Counted from the first letter of the stretch, positions 28,505 through 40,082 are shown. The stretch is DNA of 51,722 bases from Candidatus Magnetocorallium paracelense (GCA_029001845.1 JAREWP010000019.1:1-51722); one strand, 5' to 3'. A program made the numbers and translations. Notes: generated by a model from the sequence alone, not told the origin.

Positions 28505-30433
28505 TTATTGATCGGCCGTTACAGGCGGATTAAGCAATGAGGATTCATCTGGATTATGCAGGACGATTCCTTTATTGAATTTGTACTCTTTCAGTTGCTT
28601 TTTTGAAAGTTTATTTAATGAATTGTCTCTTTTTTCAAGCTCCTTTTTCAAAGCCCTTGTAAGGGAGAGATACTTTTCATAGGTCTTCACATCGACCTTT
28701 ATGGAGAAATCTCCGGGAATTTTCCATCTGTCCCGCATATGAAGCCACGAGGCGAAGTCCTCCGTCTTAAAGCCGGCCATTCGCTTTATTTCAGTCGTAT
28801 TTTTCAGGCCCTCGATCCTGAGTCCCTTAGAATCCGCCACAATCCTGTGTTCCCCCTTAAATGGTTCGGCGCCATAGTTGTCGTAAAATTCCCATGAAGA
28901 GCTCGATACCTGTCCTTTGCCTGTATGACAGGATTCGCATTCTCTCCCTCTGCCGTAAGGATGAGAGGCCTGTTCGATCTGAAACCACAAGAGGTGTTTA
29001 TTGTTTGCAGGAAGATCGTCAAATGTCCCTACAATATAGTAAGCATCGGCTGTCTCGCCTTCGGGCCATCTGAACTTAACCGAAGATGATGGAGGGATAT
29101 CATATTTGAAATTACCGAGGCTGTGAGGCCATATTTTGTAGGGACGCCATATCCCGTTCTGATCCTTGAGCAGAACAGGAGGTTTCTGCATGCCATAGTA
29201 AAGAGAATACTTTTTAAAGGGGTTCGGCTGCTTCGCCACAATACCGGGGCCCCAGACAGTGAGTTGGTAGCCCCTGAGTTCAGCGATATGACATGAAGCG
29301 CAGTCCATATTTTTATGGATGCTTCTCCCGTGAGCCTCTTCAATTTCTATATGACAGTCTCTGCATGTGGCTTTACGTTCGATATCTCCCATCCCCTTTT
29401 CGCCTGTCAAATGGCAATCCACGCAGTGGATATCTTTTTCATAATGAACATCGGGCGTCATGCCGGGAGGCACTGAATAGTCACCCCCTATATAGGTTTC
29501 TCCCCGTCTGGACTGCATGGCTCCCGGGTGACAAATACTGGTTCCCCTGCCGAATCCGGCGCAGCTCTCGGATTTCGGTATTTTTGTAAATGAGTGAACG
29601 CCTTCCTCATTGCTTGGAGTATAATGACAATCCAGACAACCGGCATGGCAGACATTACAAAATTTCTGTTTTGCTCCTGCCTGTTCTCTTGTAAAGGGAA
29701 CGTTTAGAGATTTCATGATTTCTTCTGTATTATTAAAGGAAAGAGCGGCGCTTTTTAATTCGTTACCAGGTGGGAGGTCTGCGAATGATGGCCCGCAGTT
29801 ATGGGGACCATATGGTTCAATCCAGTTTTTCATAAAACGTTGTCTGTAATTAATTCCCATAACCGTTTTTGAGAACTGTTCCAGTTCGTTAGGATGGCAT
29901 GGTTTTTTACTACAGGTTTTTTCGGCGATCTCCGGATCGAAATTAAATGTATCGGGGTCTCTGTCATGCCAGAGGATATTCCTGATATCTTCATAGAAAT
30001 ACAGATATCCCGCCTCTTCCACTTTTGGAAGAAGTTCGTAAATCCTGTTATCTCCCGTAGGCAGGAGGGGATCGGTGGTATACTCCAGACGATTCAGTCT
30101 GCTGCCGTCTTCGCCCACAAAAACCGCCTTTAACATCCCCTTATGAGCTTTCTCTTTATCTTCTGCCCTTCCATCGCCTAAATGACAATCCCTGCACTCA
30201 ATGTAGCGATGCTTACTCTGTGTTCGGACCATTTCATTGGTAACATAAAACTCCTGGAAGCCCGACTTCTCTAGGGCAGTCTTATCTCCGTGACATCGAA
30301 CACATTCGGTTGAGGAATCTTTCCACGATCTGTATCCCAGTAAGGAAAAGAGAAGAACAGCCTGAAATATAAAAAAAATAATGAGCTTGCCTGAAAAATG
30401 AGAGCTTAAATAGCCAAGAGTAAATGATTTCAT
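28505..30433 (-). CDS. Membrane-anchored multihaem cytochrome c
   Basis: A 642-residue protein with an N-terminal hydrophobic helix (about residues 17-34) that probably stays as an anchor. I count eight CxxCH haem motifs: CVRCH, CRDCH, CNVCH, CLDCH, CVDCH, CRDCH, CASCH and CESCH. There is also CSKKPCH (CX4CH) and an isolated SICH near a further Cys, which may be an extra unconventional site. The distal residues lie in the periplasm. It ends the minus-strand cluster, 75 bases after the 1124-residue coiled-coil gene. Such cytochromes shuttle electrons from the quinone pool to periplasmic acceptors; the partner is unknown. No strong ribosome site is visible at the ATG. Confidence 0.82.
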   Translation of the reverse strand: MKSFTLGYLSSHFSGKLIIFFIFQAVLLFSLLGYRSWKDSSTECVRCHGDKTALEKSGFQEFYVTNEMVRTQSKHRYIECRDCHLGDGRAEDKEKAHKGMLKAVFVGEDGSRLNRLEYTTDPLLPTGDNRIYELLPKVEEAGYLYFYEDIRNILWHDRDPDTFNFDPEIAEKTCSKKPCHPNELEQFSKTVMGINYRQRFMKNWIEPYGPHNCGPSFADLPPGNELKSAALSFNNTEEIMKSLNVPFTREQAGAKQKFCNVCHAGCLDCHYTPSNEEGVHSFTKIPKSESCAGFGRGTSICHPGAMQSRRGETYIGGDYSVPPGMTPDVHYEKDIHCVDCHLTGEKGMGDIERKATCRDCHIEIEEAHGRSIHKNMDCASCHIAELRGYQLTVWGPGIVAKQPNPFKKYSLYYGMQKPPVLLKDQNGIWRPYKIWPHSLGNFKYDIPPSSSVKFRWPEGETADAYYIVGTFDDLPANNKHLLWFQIEQASHPYGRGRECESCHTGKGQVSSSSWEFYDNYGAEPFKGEHRIVADSKGLRIEGLKNTTEIKRMAGFKTEDFASWLHMRDRWKIPGDFSIKVDVKTYEKYLSLTRALKKELEKRDNSLNKLSKKQLKEYKFNKGIVLHNPDESSLLNPPVTADQ

Positions 30434-30508: not shown

Positions 30509-33500
30509 CTACCCCATATCGCCTCTCTTTTCCCATAAATCCTGGAGTTGTCTGAACTTCTCTTCTGCTTCATTCTTTTCCTTAAGATTTCTCTCTGCCA
30601 TCTCTTTCGTCTTTTTAATTTCCTTTTCCATCTCTTCAAACTTATTTTTCAGCATATCGTCTCCTGCATATCTGAGAAGTTCCATTTTCAGCTCGTCATT
30701 TTCCGATTCCAGCCTGCGGAGATGGCCGTAAAGAGTATCCAGTGTATTCATAAGCTTTGACTCCACTCTGTCGGAGATATCTTTTTCATTACTGTATGCA
30801 TTCATCAGTTTCTTTATTGAAAAGTACATCCCGTTAAGCAGATCGTTCAGTCTTTTGTCGCTTTCACGAAGGGCCTCTCTTATCCCGGAGATATCTTTGT
30901 CTCTGTCTCCCTTATGCTCTGCATCGAGCTTACGCATCTCTTTGTTGCTGCTTTCGAAGTATCTTTTCAATTCGTCAATAGAGTTGTTTAGGGAAGAGTG
31001 AGTCTTTCCCACAGCAGATGAGACCTCTTTTACAATTCCCACTGTCGTCCGTTCCATTTGTTCCGATATTTTTGGCAACTGCCTGTCCAGCAGATCTTTT
31101 AAAGAATCCACGCCTTTATCATTCGACGTAAGCTGCCTGGCAATGATTTCCTCTACTTTACCTGTGAAATCGGATAGAGAGGAAGACAACATCGATTTCG
31201 TTTCCTTATCAATATTTGCAACGTTTCTTGTAAGGCTTTCCGATGATGCAGTGAATTTTTCGATGAGCCCGTTAAACTGTCCTTCGATAATTCCTTTGAG
31301 GTGCTCACTCTGTCTGGAATCGTTTCTCATCTGTTTGTCTGCATTGGATTCGATATCCTTCTTCACATCTGTCAAAGCGTTTAAAAGCTGAATAGACGCC
31401 TGGTCCGCCAGCTCACGCTCCTTGTTGGAAGAGGCGGATAGTTTTTTAACCATAAAAAACATACTCGATATAATTTCATGTTGTTCTGCCTGACGATCCT
31501 GCAATGACTGTTTAAGCTCCTTTAACTCATCCTTAAAAACGTTGTTTTTTGAGACCTCGTCCATTGTCAGCCTGAGCTGAGTCGTAATATCACCGATTGT
31601 TTCGCTAATTGCTGTTTTGGTGATATTCTCGATGACTCCGCTAATATTCTTTGAAGATTCAGAGGTTGATTTGAGCATCTCTTTTATTGTACCTAATTCA
31701 ATGTCAAGAGTCTCCCTGATCGTTTTGCTCTGTTCCCCGGCTTCGGCAATGTGCCGCTCTTTTAATTTCGACAACTCCTCCTTTAAATGTTCTGTCTGCA
31801 CCAGAGACGCCTTTATCTGATCTTTCATATTGGCTTCCATGTATTTCTTCAAGTCCGCCGTGGATCTGTGTAAAAGAAGCTTTGCCGTTTTTTCTACAAC
31901 AGAGACTCTTCTCTCGGCTTCAGAGGAAGACTGATCCAATTTTTCAAGAAATTCCGCTAAAACAGCTTCCACAACGCCTTTGGTCGTCTCGTTCTGCTCG
32001 CTGCCTTTTTTGTGTATAAACTCCCTGATTTGGGCAATCTCTCCTTTTATGATACTTTTTTGAGAATCATCCATTTTCAGGCGGTTTTCCAACAATTCGT
32101 TTATATGTCTTTTCAATTCGATAGTCGATCTGTCAAGGGTCAGTTTAGCGGACTTCTCGACTTCTTTAAGGCCCTCCTCCATTCTGAATGTCGATATATC
32201 GATCTTTCCAGAAATATCGTTCAGGCTTTTTTCCAATACTTCTTTTACCAACTCCTCACGTTCATCTTTACCTTTTGTAATGAGCTTCTTTATTTCCACG
32301 ATCTCATTATTCAGGACAAGTTTAAGCTCATCCTCTTTTTTGTCGCTTCCTTCAAAACACTTGCCTATATACTCCCTTAACTCGACAACAGAGGCCTTTA
32401 CTTTTTCAATCGTATCTTTGTCTCTCTCTCTGAGGTTATCCATCATCGAAGCTTTGACTGTATTCAAACTCTCCGAAATACCGGGAATTTGATCTTCCAA
32501 AATGGCAATCATTGCTTTAAGAAACTCCTTTTGTACTGACATCTCCTTTTCGACCAAAGGGGCGATTCCCTTATCTACATTAGAGAGAGTCTCCAAAACT
32601 TCCTGAATCTGATTTTTCAATCCCTCAGTCGATTCGTTTAAGGTCGAGTGCGAAATATCCCGAATTTCTGCAAGTTGTTTATCTATACCGGATGCAGATA
32701 CTTCCAGCTTCTCCGATATAGCGGCCAACTCCTTTTCAACAACTCCGCTTAACAGGTCGTTCTGTTTCGTTATACTCTCTCCCAAAATTCCGGTCAGCTC
32801 GTTTAACTTCGTACCGATATCCTCTCTGTTTGTATCAACTGATTGCATCGTTTTTTTTATATTTTCATCTATATAACTCTTTACTTCTTCAATTACCTCA
32901 CTGTGCTCGTCTCCCCTCTTTTCAAGCATCTCCTTTATACCGGATATCTCCGTCCGTAATGTCGACTTTGACAACTCTTCGATTTCGGTAAGTTTTTCGT
33001 TCAAATCGGATGAAGATCCATCCAGTCTTTCTGATATGGCAGTCAATTCTTTTCTTACAACTCCGCTTATCATATCGTTCTGTTTTATTATACTTTCTCC
33101 CAAAATTCCGGCCAATTCATTTAATTTTTCACCAATCTCCTCTTTGCTCGTTTCAACGGATTGCATAGGCTTTATTATCGTTTCGTTTATATACTTCTTT
33201 ACTTCTTCAACGACCTCTTTATGCTCATCACCCCTCTTGTTAAGGAGCTCTTTAATGCCGGATATTTCAGTCTCTAAACTCGACTTCGACGTCTCTTCGA
33301 TCTCTGCAAGTTTCTCGTTCATCCCCGACGTCGATCCCTCCAGTTTTTCCGATATGGCTTCCAGTTTATTTTCTACAACTCCGCTTATCATATCGTTCTG
33401 TTTAATGATACTCTCTCCTAAAATACCGGCCAGTTCGTTTAATTTATTATTAATTTCCTCTTTTCCCGTTTCTACGGATTGCAAAGGTTTTATTACGATT

Positions 33501-33883
33501 TCGTTTATATATCTCTTTACTTCTTCCGTCACCTCTTTATGTTCGTCGCCTCTCTTGCTTAGCATATCCTTTATTTCGTCTATATTGGCCTGTAATACTA
33601 AGGTGTGATTTTTTTCTTCTTCCCTGCTCGGTGCTATAATATCCGTTATCTCATCAACAGATTTTTTAATGCGCTCTTCCGTGGATTCTCCAAGTCCGGA
33701 AATAGCCTCCTCGATCTTCCCGGTTTCTTTTGCCATATTATCGGAAACAATGCCGGACAACTCCCTTTTCATCAGATTTTTTATAAAATCGCTTAGCCTG
33801 TCCTCGATACTGTCGGCTATCTCTTCCGATAACCTGTTGATGAGAGTTCTGCTTACTATATCTATATATAATTCATCGCTCAT
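30509..33883 (-). CDS. 1124-residue repetitive coiled-coil protein
   Basis: A very long soluble protein with no signal peptide or membrane helix. Residues 1-45 (YIDIVSRTLINRLSEEIADS) resemble the start of the 396-residue protein at 38892-40082. Residues 101-418 comprise three copies of a 106-residue unit with RGDEH at 111, 217 and 323 and KLNELAGILGESI shared among them. The remainder is heptad-rich coiled coil with weaker repeats (LKEL, REFIHKK) and ends in a charged coil. Such proteins act as scaffolds or filaments. The ATG has AGGTGAT eight bases upstream. The gap before it (33884-34284) contains long inverted repeats, so it may be a separate transcript. Confidence 0.7.
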   Translation of the reverse strand: MSDELYIDIVSRTLINRLSEEIADSIEDRLSDFIKNLMKRELSGIVSDNMAKETGKIEEAISGLGESTEERIKKSVDEITDIIAPSREEEKNHTLVLQANIDEIKDMLSKRGDEHKEVTEEVKRYINEIVIKPLQSVETGKEEINNKLNELAGILGESIIKQNDMISGVVENKLEAISEKLEGSTSGMNEKLAEIEETSKSSLETEISGIKELLNKRGDEHKEVVEEVKKYINETIIKPMQSVETSKEEIGEKLNELAGILGESIIKQNDMISGVVRKELTAISERLDGSSSDLNEKLTEIEELSKSTLRTEISGIKEMLEKRGDEHSEVIEEVKSYIDENIKKTMQSVDTNREDIGTKLNELTGILGESITKQNDLLSGVVEKELAAISEKLEVSASGIDKQLAEIRDISHSTLNESTEGLKNQIQEVLETLSNVDKGIAPLVEKEMSVQKEFLKAMIAILEDQIPGISESLNTVKASMMDNLRERDKDTIEKVKASVVELREYIGKCFEGSDKKEDELKLVLNNEIVEIKKLITKGKDEREELVKEVLEKSLNDISGKIDISTFRMEEGLKEVEKSAKLTLDRSTIELKRHINELLENRLKMDDSQKSIIKGEIAQIREFIHKKGSEQNETTKGVVEAVLAEFLEKLDQSSSEAERRVSVVEKTAKLLLHRSTADLKKYMEANMKDQIKASLVQTEHLKEELSKLKERHIAEAGEQSKTIRETLDIELGTIKEMLKSTSESSKNISGVIENITKTAISETIGDITTQLRLTMDEVSKNNVFKDELKELKQSLQDRQAEQHEIISSMFFMVKKLSASSNKERELADQASIQLLNALTDVKKDIESNADKQMRNDSRQSEHLKGIIEGQFNGLIEKFTASSESLTRNVANIDKETKSMLSSSLSDFTGKVEEIIARQLTSNDKGVDSLKDLLDRQLPKISEQMERTTVGIVKEVSSAVGKTHSSLNNSIDELKRYFESSNKEMRKLDAEHKGDRDKDISGIREALRESDKRLNDLLNGMYFSIKKLMNAYSNEKDISDRVESKLMNTLDTLYGHLRRLESENDELKMELLRYAGDDMLKNKFEEMEKEIKKTKEMAERNLKEKNEAEEKFRQLQDLWEKRGDMG
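32630..33583 (-). repeat. Three tandem 318-bp coding repeats
   Basis: Residues 101-206, 207-312 and 313-418 of the coiled-coil protein are homologous units of exactly 106 residues. Copies one and two share long identical words (KLNELAGILGESIIKQNDMI), while copy three is more diverged, which orders the duplications. Confidence 0.75.
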
Positions 33884-33969
33884 TTCTCATATCACCTCAT
33901 AAAAGTTGTAATAGTTGCCTTCTAGTTTCGGGATAAACGTCCATGACCCTCCAAGCATGAAAATGGTTA

Positions 33970-34055
33970 GAAGTAGCAGTGATGTCCTGCCAGAACAAGG
34001 TGGTGTTTGAGTTTACGAGTTTCAGCTTGTTCTGGCAGGACATCACTGCTACTTC
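33970..34055. repeat. 30-bp perfect inverted repeat
   Basis: The arms 33970-33999 (GAAGTAGCAGTGATGTCC...) and 34026-34055 are exact complements around a 26-base loop. Each side is flanked by a diverged direct repeat, TAAACGTCCATGACC (33934) and CAAATGTCCATGATC (34083). The arms could form a very stable RNA stem that blocks read-through between the kinase and the 1124-residue coiled-coil gene. Confidence 0.7.
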
Positions 34056-34143
34056 CGGCACGATATCAATCTATTTTCGGAGCAAATGTCCATGATCTTT
34101 CGGGTCACAACTAAGCATAAAAAAAGTAGTAGACAGTTTTTAG

Positions 34144-34219
34144 TCCTAATCTTACTCTTAATTCTACTTTGTCTTATTACTCAAAAAGCAACATTTATCA
34201 ATTAAGAATAAGATTAGGA
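34144..34219. repeat. 20-bp inverted repeat with one mismatch
   Basis: TCCTAATCTTACTCTTAATT (34144-34163) pairs with 34200-34219 with one mismatch. It is AT-rich and lies directly downstream of the kinase gene (minus strand), where it could help terminate. A similar sequence lies near 11660-11690. Confidence 0.55.
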
Positions 34220-34284
34220 ACATATCAAAGCATTATATTCCGGTTCGTTGCAGCCAATTTTCATTATCACGAAAAATCCATTTT

Positions 34285-36306
34285 TTAATCCTGAGGGACT
34301 TCCGGCAATTGAGGGTCAACAGGTAATCTTATAATGAACCTGCTTCCTTTACCCTCTTCGCTCTGCACGGACAATTCGCCTTTATGCTGCTTTATTATAT
34401 TCCGGCTGATTGAAAGGCCCAGTCCGGTGCCTGTACCGACAGGTTTTGTTGTAAAAAAAGGATCAAATATCTTATCCAAAATCTCTTCAGGTATTCCGAC
34501 TCCTGTGTCGCTTATTTCAATACTGACCATGTGTCCTTCCGCCGATGTATCTATCCTTATCTCACCGCTTCCTTTGATTGCCTGACAGGCATTGATCAAC
34601 AGATTTATCAATACCTGATTTATTTTACCACAATAGCAACTTACCTCGGGAATATCTCCATAATTCCGGACAATCTCTATCCTGTTTTTATACTCATTCG
34701 CCATCAAACTCAGGGAGATGTCAAGGGCATTGTTAATATTTAACTCGTTCAGTTCCGATGCATCGACTCTGGAAAAGGTCTTTAAACCCTGTACGATCTC
34801 TTTCATTCGATCTATGCCATGCTTCGATCTTTCGATTATTTTTTTCAGTCTCTCCTTTATATAATCGTAATTGATCTGCTCCTTCTGCCTTTCCACTTCG
34901 GACCTGATTTTTTCCGGCAAATCAAAGAGTTCGTAGTTTTCCAATAAACCGAGGATTTTATTGGTGAATTTCTGTAAATTGCCTATATTTGAGTGAACAA
35001 AACCGAGGGGATTATTTATCTCATGTGCTATCCCGGCAGCCAATTGACCGATGGAGGCAAGTTTTTCCGATTGAATAAGCTGTTCCTGACTTTTAACGAG
35101 TTCCTCATAGAGTTCTGAAATTTCAGAGGTTCTCTTCTTCACTTCAGATTCGAGATGTTCGTTGTAACTTTTTAGCTTCTCTTCCATCTCTTTTCTTTCC
35201 CTTATATCTTCACAGCTTGTAACAACGGCAATCGGGTCTCCCGATTCACCGCTTACAAAATCGCTTTTCAGATAAACAGGGAAAAGAGTTCCGTCTTTAC
35301 GTATGTTTATACTTTCACGACTCCAGCTCTGCAATTTCATTAACTCTTCCATGCCAGGAAGGTTTTGCCGGTCATTGGGAGAGAATACTCTTACATCTTT
35401 TCCTATTAGTTCACCGGGGATGTAACCGTGCATATCATCGACAGCATTATTTGTATAACGAATGATTCCGTCCGCGCCCGTTATTGTCAATCCTGTTTGC
35501 ATTACACCTATGGCTTTATAGAGTATTAGCAGGGACTCTTCCATATATATTCGTTCCGAAATGTCTCGAATAACAAAGAGATTACCTCTGTCAACCCCTT
35601 CGTTTTTATCCGGGATAGGGGCTGTACTACAAGATATATACGTTTCCATACCCTGTTTGGACATTAATAAGGTGTTTTTGCCCATTATTGGCGTATCATT
35701 TGTGTTTAAAAGTTCTTTTACCGATATATCTCGGTACCGGGAATCTATCTTCCTTTTGATCGTCAAAACTTCCGTTATTTCTCTTCCCACAGCACTATTG
35801 TCAGGCCAGCCTGTTAATCTCTCGGCAAGGGGGTTTATAAATTTTATTATTCCTTCAGTGTTGGTTGCTATGAGTGCGTCTGTATGACTTCTCAGAATGG
35901 TGTCGAGGTATTGTTCCCTCTCCCGCAGTCGCCTTTCCATCCCATGCTTAAAGAGTGCTATTTCCATGAATGTGGAGAGCTCTCTCTCCTGAAAGGGTTT
36001 CAGTAAATAACCAAATGGTTCGGTAAGCTTGGCGCGTTTGAGTGTCTCATCGTCGGAGTAGGCGGTAAGATACAATACAGGTATGTCAAGACGTTTGTGT
36101 ATCTCTCCGGCTGCATCGATGCCGTCCATTTCTCCTTCCAGTTGAACATCCATTAGTATCAGATCAGGGGAGGTTTCTTCTGCCTTTGCAACGGCCTCTT
36201 CTCCGTAACTTACTGACGCAACAACATCATAGCCCATCTTCTCGAGCCTTTTTTCCATCTCCAGGGCGACAACCGATTCGTCTTCAACTAATAAAATTCT
36301 ACGCAT
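34285..36306 (-). CDS. Receiver-PAS-PAS histidine kinase
   Basis: A 673-residue cytosolic kinase. The receiver is at the N-terminus (MRRILLVEDESVVALEMEKR; acceptor in DLILMDVQLEGEMDG; Lys in LLKPFQERE). Two PAS domains follow (about residues 128-245 and 265-385), then a coiled coil and HisKA with KLASIGQLAAGIAHEINNP and HATPase with LINACQAIKGSGEI, DTGVGIPEEI and GTGLGLSISR. There is no membrane segment. The start at 36306 overlaps the GTPase stop in ATGCGTAG, so translation is coupled; an upstream reading to 36372 would sit inside the GTPase gene. It should link a cytosolic signal to the GTPase/coiled-coil proteins. Confidence 0.88.
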   Translation of the reverse strand: MRRILLVEDESVVALEMEKRLEKMGYDVVASVSYGEEAVAKAEETSPDLILMDVQLEGEMDGIDAAGEIHKRLDIPVLYLTAYSDDETLKRAKLTEPFGYLLKPFQERELSTFMEIALFKHGMERRLREREQYLDTILRSHTDALIATNTEGIIKFINPLAERLTGWPDNSAVGREITEVLTIKRKIDSRYRDISVKELLNTNDTPIMGKNTLLMSKQGMETYISCSTAPIPDKNEGVDRGNLFVIRDISERIYMEESLLILYKAIGVMQTGLTITGADGIIRYTNNAVDDMHGYIPGELIGKDVRVFSPNDRQNLPGMEELMKLQSWSRESINIRKDGTLFPVYLKSDFVSGESGDPIAVVTSCEDIRERKEMEEKLKSYNEHLESEVKKRTSEISELYEELVKSQEQLIQSEKLASIGQLAAGIAHEINNPLGFVHSNIGNLQKFTNKILGLLENYELFDLPEKIRSEVERQKEQINYDYIKERLKKIIERSKHGIDRMKEIVQGLKTFSRVDASELNELNINNALDISLSLMANEYKNRIEIVRNYGDIPEVSCYCGKINQVLINLLINACQAIKGSGEIRIDTSAEGHMVSIEISDTGVGIPEEILDKIFDPFFTTKPVGTGTGLGLSISRNIIKQHKGELSVQSEEGKGSRFIIRLPVDPQLPEVPQD

Positions 36307-38872
36307 TATCAGGTTCAAATGACAGCTCTGCGAACTGTTCGAGAAGTATTTTTTCCGTAAAGGGATCGTCAAGAGGGATTTCCATCTCTTTCCATTGCGT
36401 AAGACATTCCTCCGGTGAAAGTTTATCGTAACGCATCATAAGGGCGACTTCATAAAAATAATTATACCTTACCTCGTAGTTTTCATAAATAAACCAGCGA
36501 ATATTATGTGGTGAAAAGACCTTTTCCACCTCGACGATAGCCTCATCTACAAGAATATGGAGTCTCTCCTTCTGGAATGAAGCGCCTCCGGGATAAGTGA
36601 GTAAAAGCTTGTCCTCATATTTCTTCATTAAATTGAAAAAAACGTTTCTATCCACAATATCGCTTAGTGCAGATGCGACTCTGTGTAAATCGTCGATTAC
36701 AACCTGTATGACATCGGCCTTTTCAAAAAGTTCGCTGCTCTCGGCGATATCAAAGGAGTTATTATCGTTATTTAATATATAAAAGGAGAGAGAGTTTGAC
36801 AGGTCCCCTCCAAGGTCTATGTTTTTAATGCCGCCATTACCGTTTGAGGAGTTCAAGGCATAGGGGGGGATAGACTCATTCAGTATTGAAATGTGTTCGC
36901 TTCCCGGTTTTAAAAGCCTGTTTATAAAATCTACCTGTGTTTTATGGTTTTGGCCCACAAGGAGAATCGATTTTTCGCTCTTTTCGGTAAAATTGGAAAG
37001 CGTATCAATATAATAGTTATGAAAGAGTCCCTCATAGAGTCGAATACACATACGGAAAAAGAGGTTTTGAAACTCCGCTTTTTCACGTCTTACTGTTGTC
37101 TTTTTTGTATATTTGCCATAGGCGGGAAATTTTTCCTCTACAGCCTCGGAATCGCAAAGATGGGATATACTCCTGACCAGTCTGTGAAGATCTTTACTGA
37201 TTCCCACAAGTTTCGCGTACTGCACTTCATCATAGGTGGCGCCCTTTTCGATATTTTCTATATCGTCTTTCAGGGATAAGGTCTTTTTATAGAGGGGATC
37301 GACAAAAGAGAACGAAACGGTTTTGTCCCACCAGTCCAGGTGACCTATCAGTGGTGCAAAGAAGTGGTTCAAAGATTCTTTCAGATCCTTTATAAATTTG
37401 TTTTTGTCGATATACTCTGCAGTGACCTCACGGCCTTTCGCCAATAACGATCCCGATGAACCCTTTTCACGATTAAGAGCGTCGGAGACCTGTTTTTTCT
37501 GTACATTTGGGAGAAAAAAACTCTGCACGCCGGAACCCTGAATATCGGTACGTCTTACATCAAGGCCGATATCGTCAAAATATTCTCTGAACTTCTCTTT
37601 GGCGTTGTCAAGAGTCTCCAGTAAATCGTGTTTCATCCTCTGAGTCTTTTCGCTGATAGCTTCTGCTTTTAAAACAAATTCCCTGTCATGAACAGGATTG
37701 TATTCATAGTGAAAGGAGAATGTCTTTTGTAACTCCTTGCTATATATTTCATATAATGATATATAGTCAAGTTTTTTTCTCCAGTTACCGACAACGTTAT
37801 CTTTGATATGTATAATTTTTTTATAATAATCTACAAGTTTTTCAAGTTTTTTAACTTCTTCTTCTATGCTCTTCTTTTTTTCTTTTTCATCTTTGGCGGC
37901 ATTGATTATAAGTGTATTAAGGGAATTGATTTCGTCGACAATCCTTTTCAGACTCTTTAGAGTATATTCATATTGAAGCTGTTTTGTAACATTTTTTGTT
38001 ACATGGACGAACTCTTCAAAGCCTGAATCCTGCCAGGCGCTTTCGTCTTTATCTTTAAAATATTTTATTGCCGTAGTCGTTTCCACCTGTACAATCGGAG
38101 CGTCCTTTAATCTGGAGTAGTGGCTTATGGCTCTTTCAAACTCCTCCTTATGCCTCTTGAGAGACTCCTCTATGGATTCCGAGCCGTCACCGCCTACATT
38201 ACTTCCCACGACAGCGCCTTTGCAGGTTTGGGCAAAGATGATGCGTTGATCTGCATCCATGATCTTATTCAGGATTTTTCTGTCCGCCTCTTTCATGGGA
38301 CTCCTGACAGAAGAAAGATAGATAATTAAATCCGCCTGTGGAAGAAATTCGCGGAGAGTCAGATCTTCGTGCTCTTTATGTCCATAGGCGTCAAGCCCGG
38401 GAGTGTCGGCGATCTCAAGATCCCCTTGAAGGATAAAACTGGGCAGCCCCAGCTTTATATATTTAACACCATATTTATTTTGAGGGTTCTCGTCTTCTGA
38501 TGTATATTTCCACAGAGATTCGGTAAAAACGCCTTTACCGGTCGTTTTCTTAGACTCGCCGTTTTCAAAAATAATCTCAAGAAAAGGCTCTTCCGCCTTG
38601 GCGCAAAAAACAAGCATATTTGTCGTCGCCTTGCTCTGTTCCTTTAAGATTTTTTCTCCCTTACCTAACAGTACATTTAAAAGAGAGGACTTACCGGAAC
38701 TTGTAATTCCCACAAGTCCGCTTTTTATGGTATGCTTTGAGAAAGAACGGATATTATTTTCAAGATTATTGATTCTGTGCCTGAACTGCTCTATTCCCAC
38801 GTCCTTTAACTGAAGCACAGTGTCTTTGGCCCTGTCTAAAAAATCTTTAATCTCCTGTTCTTCTTTATCCAT
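36299..38872 (-). CDS. Dynamin-like large GTPase
   Basis: An 857-residue GTPase of the bacterial dynamin-like type. The P-loop is GITSSGKSS (residues 55-63), the switch I threonine is in SKATTNM (80-86), and the G3 motif is DTPGLD (156-161). G4 is unusual: TCKGAV at about 216 in place of T/NKxD. Coiled coil follows (about 300-440), then a middle region. Residues 633-800 look like a second, degenerate G domain with ILLVGQNHKTQVDFINRLLK instead of a P-loop and a late VIQVVIDDLHR segment. No membrane helix is predicted. GAGGAG precedes the ATG, and the gene overlaps the kinase by eight bases. Dynamin-like proteins remodel or sense membranes on GTP hydrolysis. Confidence 0.8.
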   Translation of the reverse strand: MDKEEQEIKDFLDRAKDTVLQLKDVGIEQFRHRINNLENNIRSFSKHTIKSGLVGITSSGKSSLLNVLLGKGEKILKEQSKATTNMLVFCAKAEEPFLEIIFENGESKKTTGKGVFTESLWKYTSEDENPQNKYGVKYIKLGLPSFILQGDLEIADTPGLDAYGHKEHEDLTLREFLPQADLIIYLSSVRSPMKEADRKILNKIMDADQRIIFAQTCKGAVVGSNVGGDGSESIEESLKRHKEEFERAISHYSRLKDAPIVQVETTTAIKYFKDKDESAWQDSGFEEFVHVTKNVTKQLQYEYTLKSLKRIVDEINSLNTLIINAAKDEKEKKKSIEEEVKKLEKLVDYYKKIIHIKDNVVGNWRKKLDYISLYEIYSKELQKTFSFHYEYNPVHDREFVLKAEAISEKTQRMKHDLLETLDNAKEKFREYFDDIGLDVRRTDIQGSGVQSFFLPNVQKKQVSDALNREKGSSGSLLAKGREVTAEYIDKNKFIKDLKESLNHFFAPLIGHLDWWDKTVSFSFVDPLYKKTLSLKDDIENIEKGATYDEVQYAKLVGISKDLHRLVRSISHLCDSEAVEEKFPAYGKYTKKTTVRREKAEFQNLFFRMCIRLYEGLFHNYYIDTLSNFTEKSEKSILLVGQNHKTQVDFINRLLKPGSEHISILNESIPPYALNSSNGNGGIKNIDLGGDLSNSLSFYILNNDNNSFDIAESSELFEKADVIQVVIDDLHRVASALSDIVDRNVFFNLMKKYEDKLLLTYPGGASFQKERLHILVDEAIVEVEKVFSPHNIRWFIYENYEVRYNYFYEVALMMRYDKLSPEECLTQWKEMEIPLDDPFTEKILLEQFAELSFEPDNA

Positions 38873-38891
38873 GACTCCTCTTCGCCCTCCT

Positions 38892-40082
38892 TTATTTCCC
38901 TGTCTCGGAAAGTTTCTTCAGTTTATCTTCAATTGCCACTTGATTGTTTAGAAAACTCTCAGCCAGCTTTTTTGCATTTTTCAGGTCATTTTCCAGAATA
39001 TCCTTTATAAAGCCTGCATTTTCATTTTTATTGGCAAGAATCGTCTCTCTTATATCTCCCAATTCGCTCTTAAGAAATGATATTATCTCCTCACCCGTAA
39101 CCTTTTGCTCCTCCTTACCGGTATCGAGAAGACCCTTGATATCCTCTCCGGATTTCTCTATATAGGCGCTTATCTTTCCTTCGATCTCTCCTATTTTGCT
39201 TTCTGTACTTTCCATTGAATTACCTATCTCTCTGCTCACATCGATCAGACGGTTTTCTATCTTCTCTATAAAACCGTTAAGAAAGTCGGTCTGACTCTCC
39301 TTTCCTTCCTGTAATATGCGTTTAATATCTTCCAGCATGGATTTTATAATAGTTTCGTCATCCTCTTTTTTTGCCAGTATATCTTTTAGCCGACTTTTAA
39401 TCTCCTCAGTCGATTCCTGTATCTGGCGTCCGACCTGTTTGCTGTCCCCTGTTATCTTGTCCTCTATTGTTCCAAAAGAGCTCTCCATCTTATCTGAAAG
39501 ACCGGATAATATACTCTCTGTCTTTGTCACGATGGAAACGATATTCTTGCTGTCCCCCCCGTCCTGTACGGCAAGTTTAATATCCTCGAGCATAGATTTT
39601 ATTGCAACGACATCTTCCTCTTTCCCGGTTTGAAAATCCTTTAATCGGCTGCTTATATCCTCAGTTGAATCCTGTATAAGGGTTTTCGCCATTTCGTTAC
39701 CTGTCGTAATTTTATTTTCCATCGTTTCAAAGGAACTCTCCATCTTGTCGGCCAGACCGGACAAGATACCGTCCATTCTTATCACTGCCGAATCTATCTT
39801 TTCATTATCTTTGTTCAGCATTGATTTTTGTAACTCTTCCAAAGCATCTTTAATAAAAGAGTTCTGTTCTTCGCTGTTTCTGTTTCTCTCGAGGCTGTCT
39901 TCCAGCAGCGTTTTGATTTCACTGTTATTGGCTTCCAGAAGCGCCTTTGTGTTTTCATCGACCTTTGTTATACGCTCTCCAATCTTATCGTCTATCTTAC
40001 CGGCTACGGCGGCGGCGATATGATCCGATAAGGTGGCGATAATCGTCCTTGTAACGCTGTCTATATAATAATCGTCTTTCAT
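38892..40082 (-). CDS. 396-residue coiled-coil protein
   Basis: A soluble coiled-coil protein with GGGAG before its ATG. It opens YYIDSVTRTIIATLSDHIAAAV, similar to the start of the 1124-residue protein (YIDIVSRTLINRLSEEIADSI). Inside are two copies of an 85-residue unit with ILSGLxDKMESSF at residues 106 and 191, and SRLKD / IKSMLEDIK elements following each. The rest is heptad-rich. It is the first gene of a minus-strand unit, 19 bases before the GTPase gene, so the two are probably co-expressed and may interact. Confidence 0.7.
   Translation of the reverse strand: MKDDYYIDSVTRTIIATLSDHIAAAVAGKIDDKIGERITKVDENTKALLEANNSEIKTLLEDSLERNRNSEEQNSFIKDALEELQKSMLNKDNEKIDSAVIRMDGILSGLADKMESSFETMENKITTGNEMAKTLIQDSTEDISSRLKDFQTGKEEDVVAIKSMLEDIKLAVQDGGDSKNIVSIVTKTESILSGLSDKMESSFGTIEDKITGDSKQVGRQIQESTEEIKSRLKDILAKKEDDETIIKSMLEDIKRILQEGKESQTDFLNGFIEKIENRLIDVSREIGNSMESTESKIGEIEGKISAYIEKSGEDIKGLLDTGKEEQKVTGEEIISFLKSELGDIRETILANKNENAGFIKDILENDLKNAKKLAESFLNNQVAIEDKLKKLSETGK

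Follow-up and report, generated by a model that had tools for sequence, protein, structure and literature searches.

Five minus-strand genes of Candidatus Magnetocorallium paracelense, encoding a long helical protein, a dynamin-like protein (DLP), a histidine kinase, a second and much longer helical protein and a multihaem cytochrome, raise the question of whether they make up one system, as a sequence-only reading had proposed, and, if they do not, which of them belong together. Here, we show by homology and profile searches, gene-neighbourhood comparison and structure prediction, applied to a window of 51,722 nucleotides (GCA_029001845.1, JAREWP010000019.1:1-51722; by the window we mean this whole stretch) and to related genomes, that the conserved unit is smaller than proposed: it consists of the DLP and a rod-shaped partner, and not of five genes.

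All five open reading frames are found where they had been placed (Table 1), and the finer points of the arrangement hold as well. A 19-nt gap (38873-38891) separates the end of the partner A gene from the DLP gene, with GGAGG ahead of the DLP ATG, and the DLP stop codon shares the overlap ATGCGTAG with the kinase ATG at 36306. The genes do lie in line in the proposed order; they do not form an unbroken unit, as the 401 nt between the kinase and partner B genes hold two large inverted repeats. One of these is a palindromic, REP- or MITE-like interspersed repeat, which recurs in the same genome in at least 49 copies of 78-90% identity, and the other spans 34144-34219. An Rfam scan of the region gave nothing at gathering score; the weaker matches were no more than chance miRNA-like hairpins on the repeat. 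Partner B and the cytochrome gene are 75 nt apart.

Table 1. Genes, domains and repeat of the locus, in positions of the window
Feature	Extent	Position	Strand	Basis or remark
Partner protein A	396 aa	38892..40082	-	ORF call
Conserved N-terminal motif of partner A	aa 1-25	40008..40082	-	consensus YYIDxVTKxIIxxLSxxI
Dynamin-like protein (DLP)	857 aa	36299..38872	-	ORF call
N-terminal G domain of DLP	~aa 45-300	37973..38740	-	P-loop GITSSGKS, ATTN, DTPGLD; G4 segment QTCKG without Asp
SFFLPNVQKK loop of DLP	aa 440-462	37487..37555	-	conserved, between two long trunk helices; candidate membrane-contact tip
C-terminal domain of DLP	aa 600-857	36302..37075	-	predicted pseudo-GTPase fold without P-loop
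Receiver-PAS-PAS-histidine kinase	673 aa	34285..36306	-	ORF call and Pfam
Palindromic interspersed repeat	33-nt arms at 33970-34055	33923..34123	.	between kinase and partner B
Partner protein B	1124 aa	30509..33883	-	ORF call
Multihaem cytochrome		28505..30433	-	ORF call

The DLP was searched in its own genome and in 99 relatives. Most members of the family carry one or two full-length copies at 41-60% identity, including a second copy in the own genome (contig C46, 52% identity to the window DLP), and beyond the family but within the order these relatives gave only G-domain matches. In a sample of 198 Nitrospirota genomes five are DLP-positive, all of them in the same family. Named carriers are magnetotactic Nitrospirota, for instance Magnetobacterium casense and Magnetominusculus xianensis, together with one contig of a Desulfamplus metagenome-assembled genome (MAG), and one Sumerlaeota genome has the same pair, with a DLP of 25% identity and the two genes overlapping. 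Close relatives of the DLP are confined almost only to magnetotactic Nitrospirota. In the tree, ten DLPs including that of the window form a clade with strong support (99/100), from which the C46 copy is excluded.

The association with the helical protein is close. A long-helix protein directly adjoins the DLP in 24 of the 26 loci with a readable flank; its motif was directly seen in 21 of these 24, and a contig end cuts the partner gene in the other three. The two exceptions are the C46 paralogue and an incomplete MAG locus (L049). Usually the partner lies upstream of the DLP, and it lies downstream in a divergent paralogue (L038) and in the Sumerlaeota genome (L073). A profile of the first 40 residues of the partner, run over 21 related genomes, found the motif in all eight DLP-positive genomes and in none of the 13 DLP-negative ones, counts for which we give no p-value since the 21 genomes are related to each other. 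This co-occurrence is the strongest result of our analysis. Partner and DLP numbers are equal in seven of the eight positive genomes; the own genome has four partners and two DLPs, so that several combinations are possible there. Gain or loss strikes the DLP and its partner jointly within two genera, g2 (G002 versus G008 and G011) and g3 (G010 versus G001 and G007). The pair of coil and DLP is real, and it is conserved in adjacency and in co-occurrence.

At its own locus (L040 9644-12205), the C46 paralogue has as neighbours an HDOD protein and an AAA-ATPase/PD-(D/E)XK protein, and no partner gene adjoins it.

What kind of protein is the DLP? Its Dynamin_N match in Pfam is clear (E 6.9e-15, 55.9 bits against a cut-off of 27), and the P-loop GITSSGKS, ATTN and DTPGLD are intact in an alignment of all 16 relatives compared, K61 being the P-loop lysine of the window DLP. 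Foldseek matches the full-length AlphaFold model (pLDDT 76) to BDLP (2j69, E 1.2e-15 over 678 columns) and to IniA (6j72, E 1.4e-15), Cj-DLP1/2 and LeoA also being among the fold matches, and VIA-align over aa 1-575 gives Z scores of 19-22 (against 2j69 Z 19.3, 512 aligned, rmsd 6.8). As modelled, the DLP is a bacterial dynamin-like protein with a predicted BDLP/IniA-like helical neck and trunk, a fold consistent with the membrane role that had been suggested for the GTPase; we propose that it is located in the cytosol. The conserved SFFLPNVQKK loop is hydrophobic-basic in character and is modelled at low confidence. Its position corresponds to that of the trunk tips of BDLP and Cj-DLP2, by analogy with which it may serve as the membrane tip.

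One feature of the G domain departs from the usual pattern. The G4 aspartate is the residue that normally reads guanine. In every Nitrospirota and Desulfamplus member aligned, the G4 segment (aa 210-224) is QTCK[GSAN] and not [N/T]KxD, and the aspartate is present in the Sumerlaeota DLP (TQAD). Because the G4 aspartate is missing, GTP specificity of the DLP is not to be assumed, and judging from the motif its nucleotide specificity may be changed.

At the other end of the chain, the last 258 residues modelled alone (pLDDT 89, pTM 0.87) match TRAFAC-class GTPases, with VIA-align Z scores of 9.4 for EHD4, 8.4 for Era, 8.4 for Gtr1 and 7.7 for Cj-DLP1; the best Foldseek match is Cj-DLP1, a weak one (E 0.004). 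Neither a P-loop lysine nor DxxG was found in this domain in any of the 16 aligned DLPs. With reservation, we read it as a pseudo-GTPase domain, and since hhalign gives no match between the profiles of the N-terminal G domain and the C-terminal domain, it is the predicted fold that has to carry this assignment by itself. The same comparison led us to reject an internal G-domain duplication that would be detectable by sequence.

The partner proteins are built from a fixed N-terminal motif, a helix of variable length and, in most members, a conserved C-terminal end. Natural versions include ones of 168, 280 and 596 aa, and short ones have roughly 140-200 aa. Within the motif, Y6, D8 and L18 are invariant among the aligned proteins, Sumerlaeota included. 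In partner A the motif (profile E 2e-17) is followed by an 11-residue-repeat helix. The hydrophobic period is about 3.65-3.67 in most partners tested; in eight partners the 11/3 power lies 6 to 29 SD above shuffles, and the power at 3.5 is clearly lower except in a 252-aa orphan. Such an 11/3, or hendecad, pattern is typical of right-handed coiled coils and of 11-residue lipid-binding helices, and the partner helix could be either. The label of coiled coil given to these proteins earlier was too simple, because the hydrophobic pattern has a period of 11/3 and not 7/2. The hendecad pattern also explains why the partners yield sub-threshold Apolipoprotein and ZorA matches. No hydrophobic or transmembrane segment was found in partner A or partner B of the window. 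The Sumerlaeota partner (L073 6338-7846) differs from the Nitrospirota partners tested in having a transmembrane helix at its end.

Partner B starts with the same N-terminal motif as partner A, matches the partners of the paralogous DLP clade at 28-32% over its final 330 residues, and owes part of its length to three internal 106-aa repeats. By these sequence features we assign it to the same family, as a second partner encoded in the window. Two lone partners elsewhere in the own genome have no DLP beside them (L112 7202-9595, 769 aa; L113 7894-8652, 252 aa). In genus g4, which is Magnetominusculus-like, a helical protein of 335-360 aa (MAEIEGTDDFQQML...) lies downstream of the DLP (L032 10473-11522, L053 12567-13649, L035 1561-2571), and it is possibly a third component in that genus.

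How do the other genes of the locus, and other readings of the pair, fare against this evidence? That coil, DLP and kinase, together with the second coil, are one dedicated system in which the kinase controls a GTPase-scaffold machine is very improbable. The overlap and the tight spacing in the own genome do point that way, and two-component genes lie at most two genes from the pair in a few other loci (L039, L043, L060). However, none of the relatives has the trio with an orthologous kinase. Neighbourhoods of about 25 loci show the kinase, which has receiver, two PAS, HisKA and HATPase_c domains (Pfam), to be missing beside the pair in almost every relative, and in a search of 12 genomes its best matches outside the own genome do not lie beside a pair. 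In the own genome it has 78 matches at E<=1e-25, a large local expansion; two-component genes are not enriched near the pair (6 of 55 genes within two positions versus 19 of 107 four or more away, one-sided p=0.92); and the high-copy repeat stands between the kinase and partner B. Neighbourhoods, kinase search and near-versus-far comparison together lead us to reject the coil-DLP-kinase trio, whose conservation in the same order had been put forward as a check: the coil stays with the DLP in relatives, whereas the kinase does not. Given its expansion, the lack of enrichment and the intervening repeat, the kinase can be no more than an addition at strain level, and the five genes do not make up a single uninterrupted system. 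As a local addition, it might tune DLP expression or activity in this strain via translational coupling. A stress or anti-phage system of the LeoABC kind is unlikely too. The DLP has a weak PADLOC match to LeoA (9.8e-12) and a patchy distribution, and a related DLP sits on a Paenibacillus plasmid near LeoB-like and LeoA-like DLPs and a GajB-like helicase. Yet the score against the LeoA/HP0731 family (NCBIfam NF041922) is 30.5 bits against a cut-off of 325, neither LeoB nor LeoC is adjacent, no further Dynamin_N gene occurs among the neighbours scanned, and the neighbours are housekeeping genes (phosphofructokinase, enolase). Phage records gave no match and plasmids one partial match. The role in phage defence that had been raised for the locus is not supported by this context, the profile matches all being sub-threshold.

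A link to magnetotaxis is somewhat more probable, and we still regard it as doubtful that the pair helps to shape, divide, tether or arrange the magnetosome membranes, or the numerous chains of magnetosomes that these Nitrospirota have. All DLP-positive genomes that are complete enough and reach at least 45% identity have a magnetochrome domain, as does the Desulfamplus MAG; among 345 Desulfobacterota genomes, six exceed the magnetochrome cut-off, and the sole DLP-positive one is among them. In a Thermodesulfovibrionia MAG (L060/L128, G102:C15), a distance of about 9 kb separates the pair from mamK (464 bits, cut-off 400), mamM (402 bits, cut-off 350) and mamP-, mamQ-, mamB-, mamA- and mamE-like genes. 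Against this, five relatives (G002, G004, G005, G006, G010), three of them at least 92% complete, are magnetochrome-positive and have no DLP, so the DLP is not required for magnetotaxis. The own genome has the pair on one contig and the magnetochrome gene on another; in G008, whose genome is a single contig, about 340 kb lie between them; and the Sumerlaeota member has no magnetochrome match. The pair in the window is not part of a magnetosome gene cluster, and proximity to mam genes was found only at L060/L128. As for the Desulfamplus contig (L071), it is only 3 kb long and possibly misbinned; its tetranucleotide profile is closer to its own MAG than to most Nitrospirota, yet equally close to L060. 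A more specific version joins an active and a pseudo G domain in one chain with interchangeable hendecad rods that would act as molecular rulers, the whole shaping or tethering internal, magnetosome-related membranes of magnetotactic Nitrospirota; we hold this to be slightly less probable again.

The cytochrome, a membrane-anchored protein with an N-terminal hydrophobic segment, has the eight CxxCH motifs of the multihaem protein that it had been taken for. We found no tie between it and the DLP-partner pair, to which it is probably unrelated. It is weakly similar to ExtN/ExtO of selenite/tellurite reduction operons.

The Paenibacillus locus deserves mention in its own right. On plasmid pART37 of Paenibacillus sp. 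37 (L115), an 856-aa DLP related to the window DLP (hhalign 99.9% over 488 columns) is followed by a helical 207-aa protein and then by the LeoB-like and LeoA-like DLPs, beside the helicase, in a region that is possibly a defence island. We do not claim the 207-aa protein for the partner-motif family: its best window, EVDEMTRKIMETL, is N-terminal as expected, but 380 of 5000 shuffles reach its score. The 11/3 and 7/2 powers of this protein are alike, and no alignment was obtained between the C-terminal region and the pseudo-G profile. Plasmid carriage of the DLP was rejected, as the single match was partial and in Paenibacillus, and a viral origin was rejected because an IMG/VR scan and a phage collection gave no relative.

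What, then, would a DLP do with a rod? We think it probable that the core is a two-protein module of a cytosolic DLP and a rod partner; its likeliest role is to remodel or tether the inner membrane, driven by nucleotide, with the rod serving for both docking and spacing. From the domain make-up, the pairing and the joint inheritance, we infer that the N-terminal motif of the rod would dock on the DLP, a contact suggested by the genetics. Known bacterial DLPs usually work in twos, with two different DLPs that are fused or encoded by adjoining genes (PMC6104087, PMC4159319), and the built-in pseudo-G domain may replace the second DLP of such pairs, either regulating or completing G-domain pairing. 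The length of the rod might set the spacing or distance of action, or its amphipathic face might bind lipid and determine where the module acts. Nucleotide turnover would then drive remodelling, tethering or repair of the inner membrane.

Several known systems resemble this module in part. BDLP1 of Nostoc punctiforme and IniA of mycobacteria share the G domain, neck and trunk fold (aa 1-575), the intact P-loop and DTPG, whereas the DLP described here has an extra predicted C-terminal pseudo-G domain, no G4 aspartate and a constant helical, non-DLP partner gene. LeoABC and Cj-DLP1/DLP2, of which LeoA and Cj-DLP are among the fold matches, likewise place a DLP gene beside an obligate-looking partner (PMC4159319, PMC6104087); there the partner is a second DLP, whereas here it is a helical rod of variable length and the second G-like domain is fused and has no P-loop. 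DynA of Bacillus, two fused DLPs, also combines two G-like domains in a single chain; there both GTPases are reported to be required (PMC6104087). DynA, however, comprises two full DLP units in about 1190 aa, in contrast to the 857 aa here, where the second domain has neither a P-loop nor a trunk of its own. The partner bodies score against ZorA tails and apolipoprotein-type 11/22-residue amphipathic helices and share the 11-residue period with both. In contrast to Zorya (ZorAB), they have no MotA/ExbB membrane domain and there is no ZorB, and the matches stay under the curated cut-offs (NCBIfam ZorA, 21.3 bits against 250). Our literature search, which covered few subscription papers and is for that reason weak evidence of absence, found no description of a DLP-rod pair; as far as we found, the pairing of a DLP with a long rod partner is previously undescribed, in keeping with the earlier view that no described system has such a make-up.

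In conclusion, the pair is a real, conserved two-protein module with an unusual DLP architecture; we leave the kinase and the cytochrome out of it and drop the single-operon reading. If our reading is true, these bacteria have a DLP with a built-in G-like domain that is dead, and in place of a second DLP it depends on a rod whose length varies freely. The orphan partners and the paralogues would offer naturally occurring variants with which to test for rulers or tethers in the remodelling of bacterial membranes, and with the near-restriction of the module to magnetotactic lineages and one copy near a magnetosome cluster, a possible link to the magnetosome membrane becomes directly testable.
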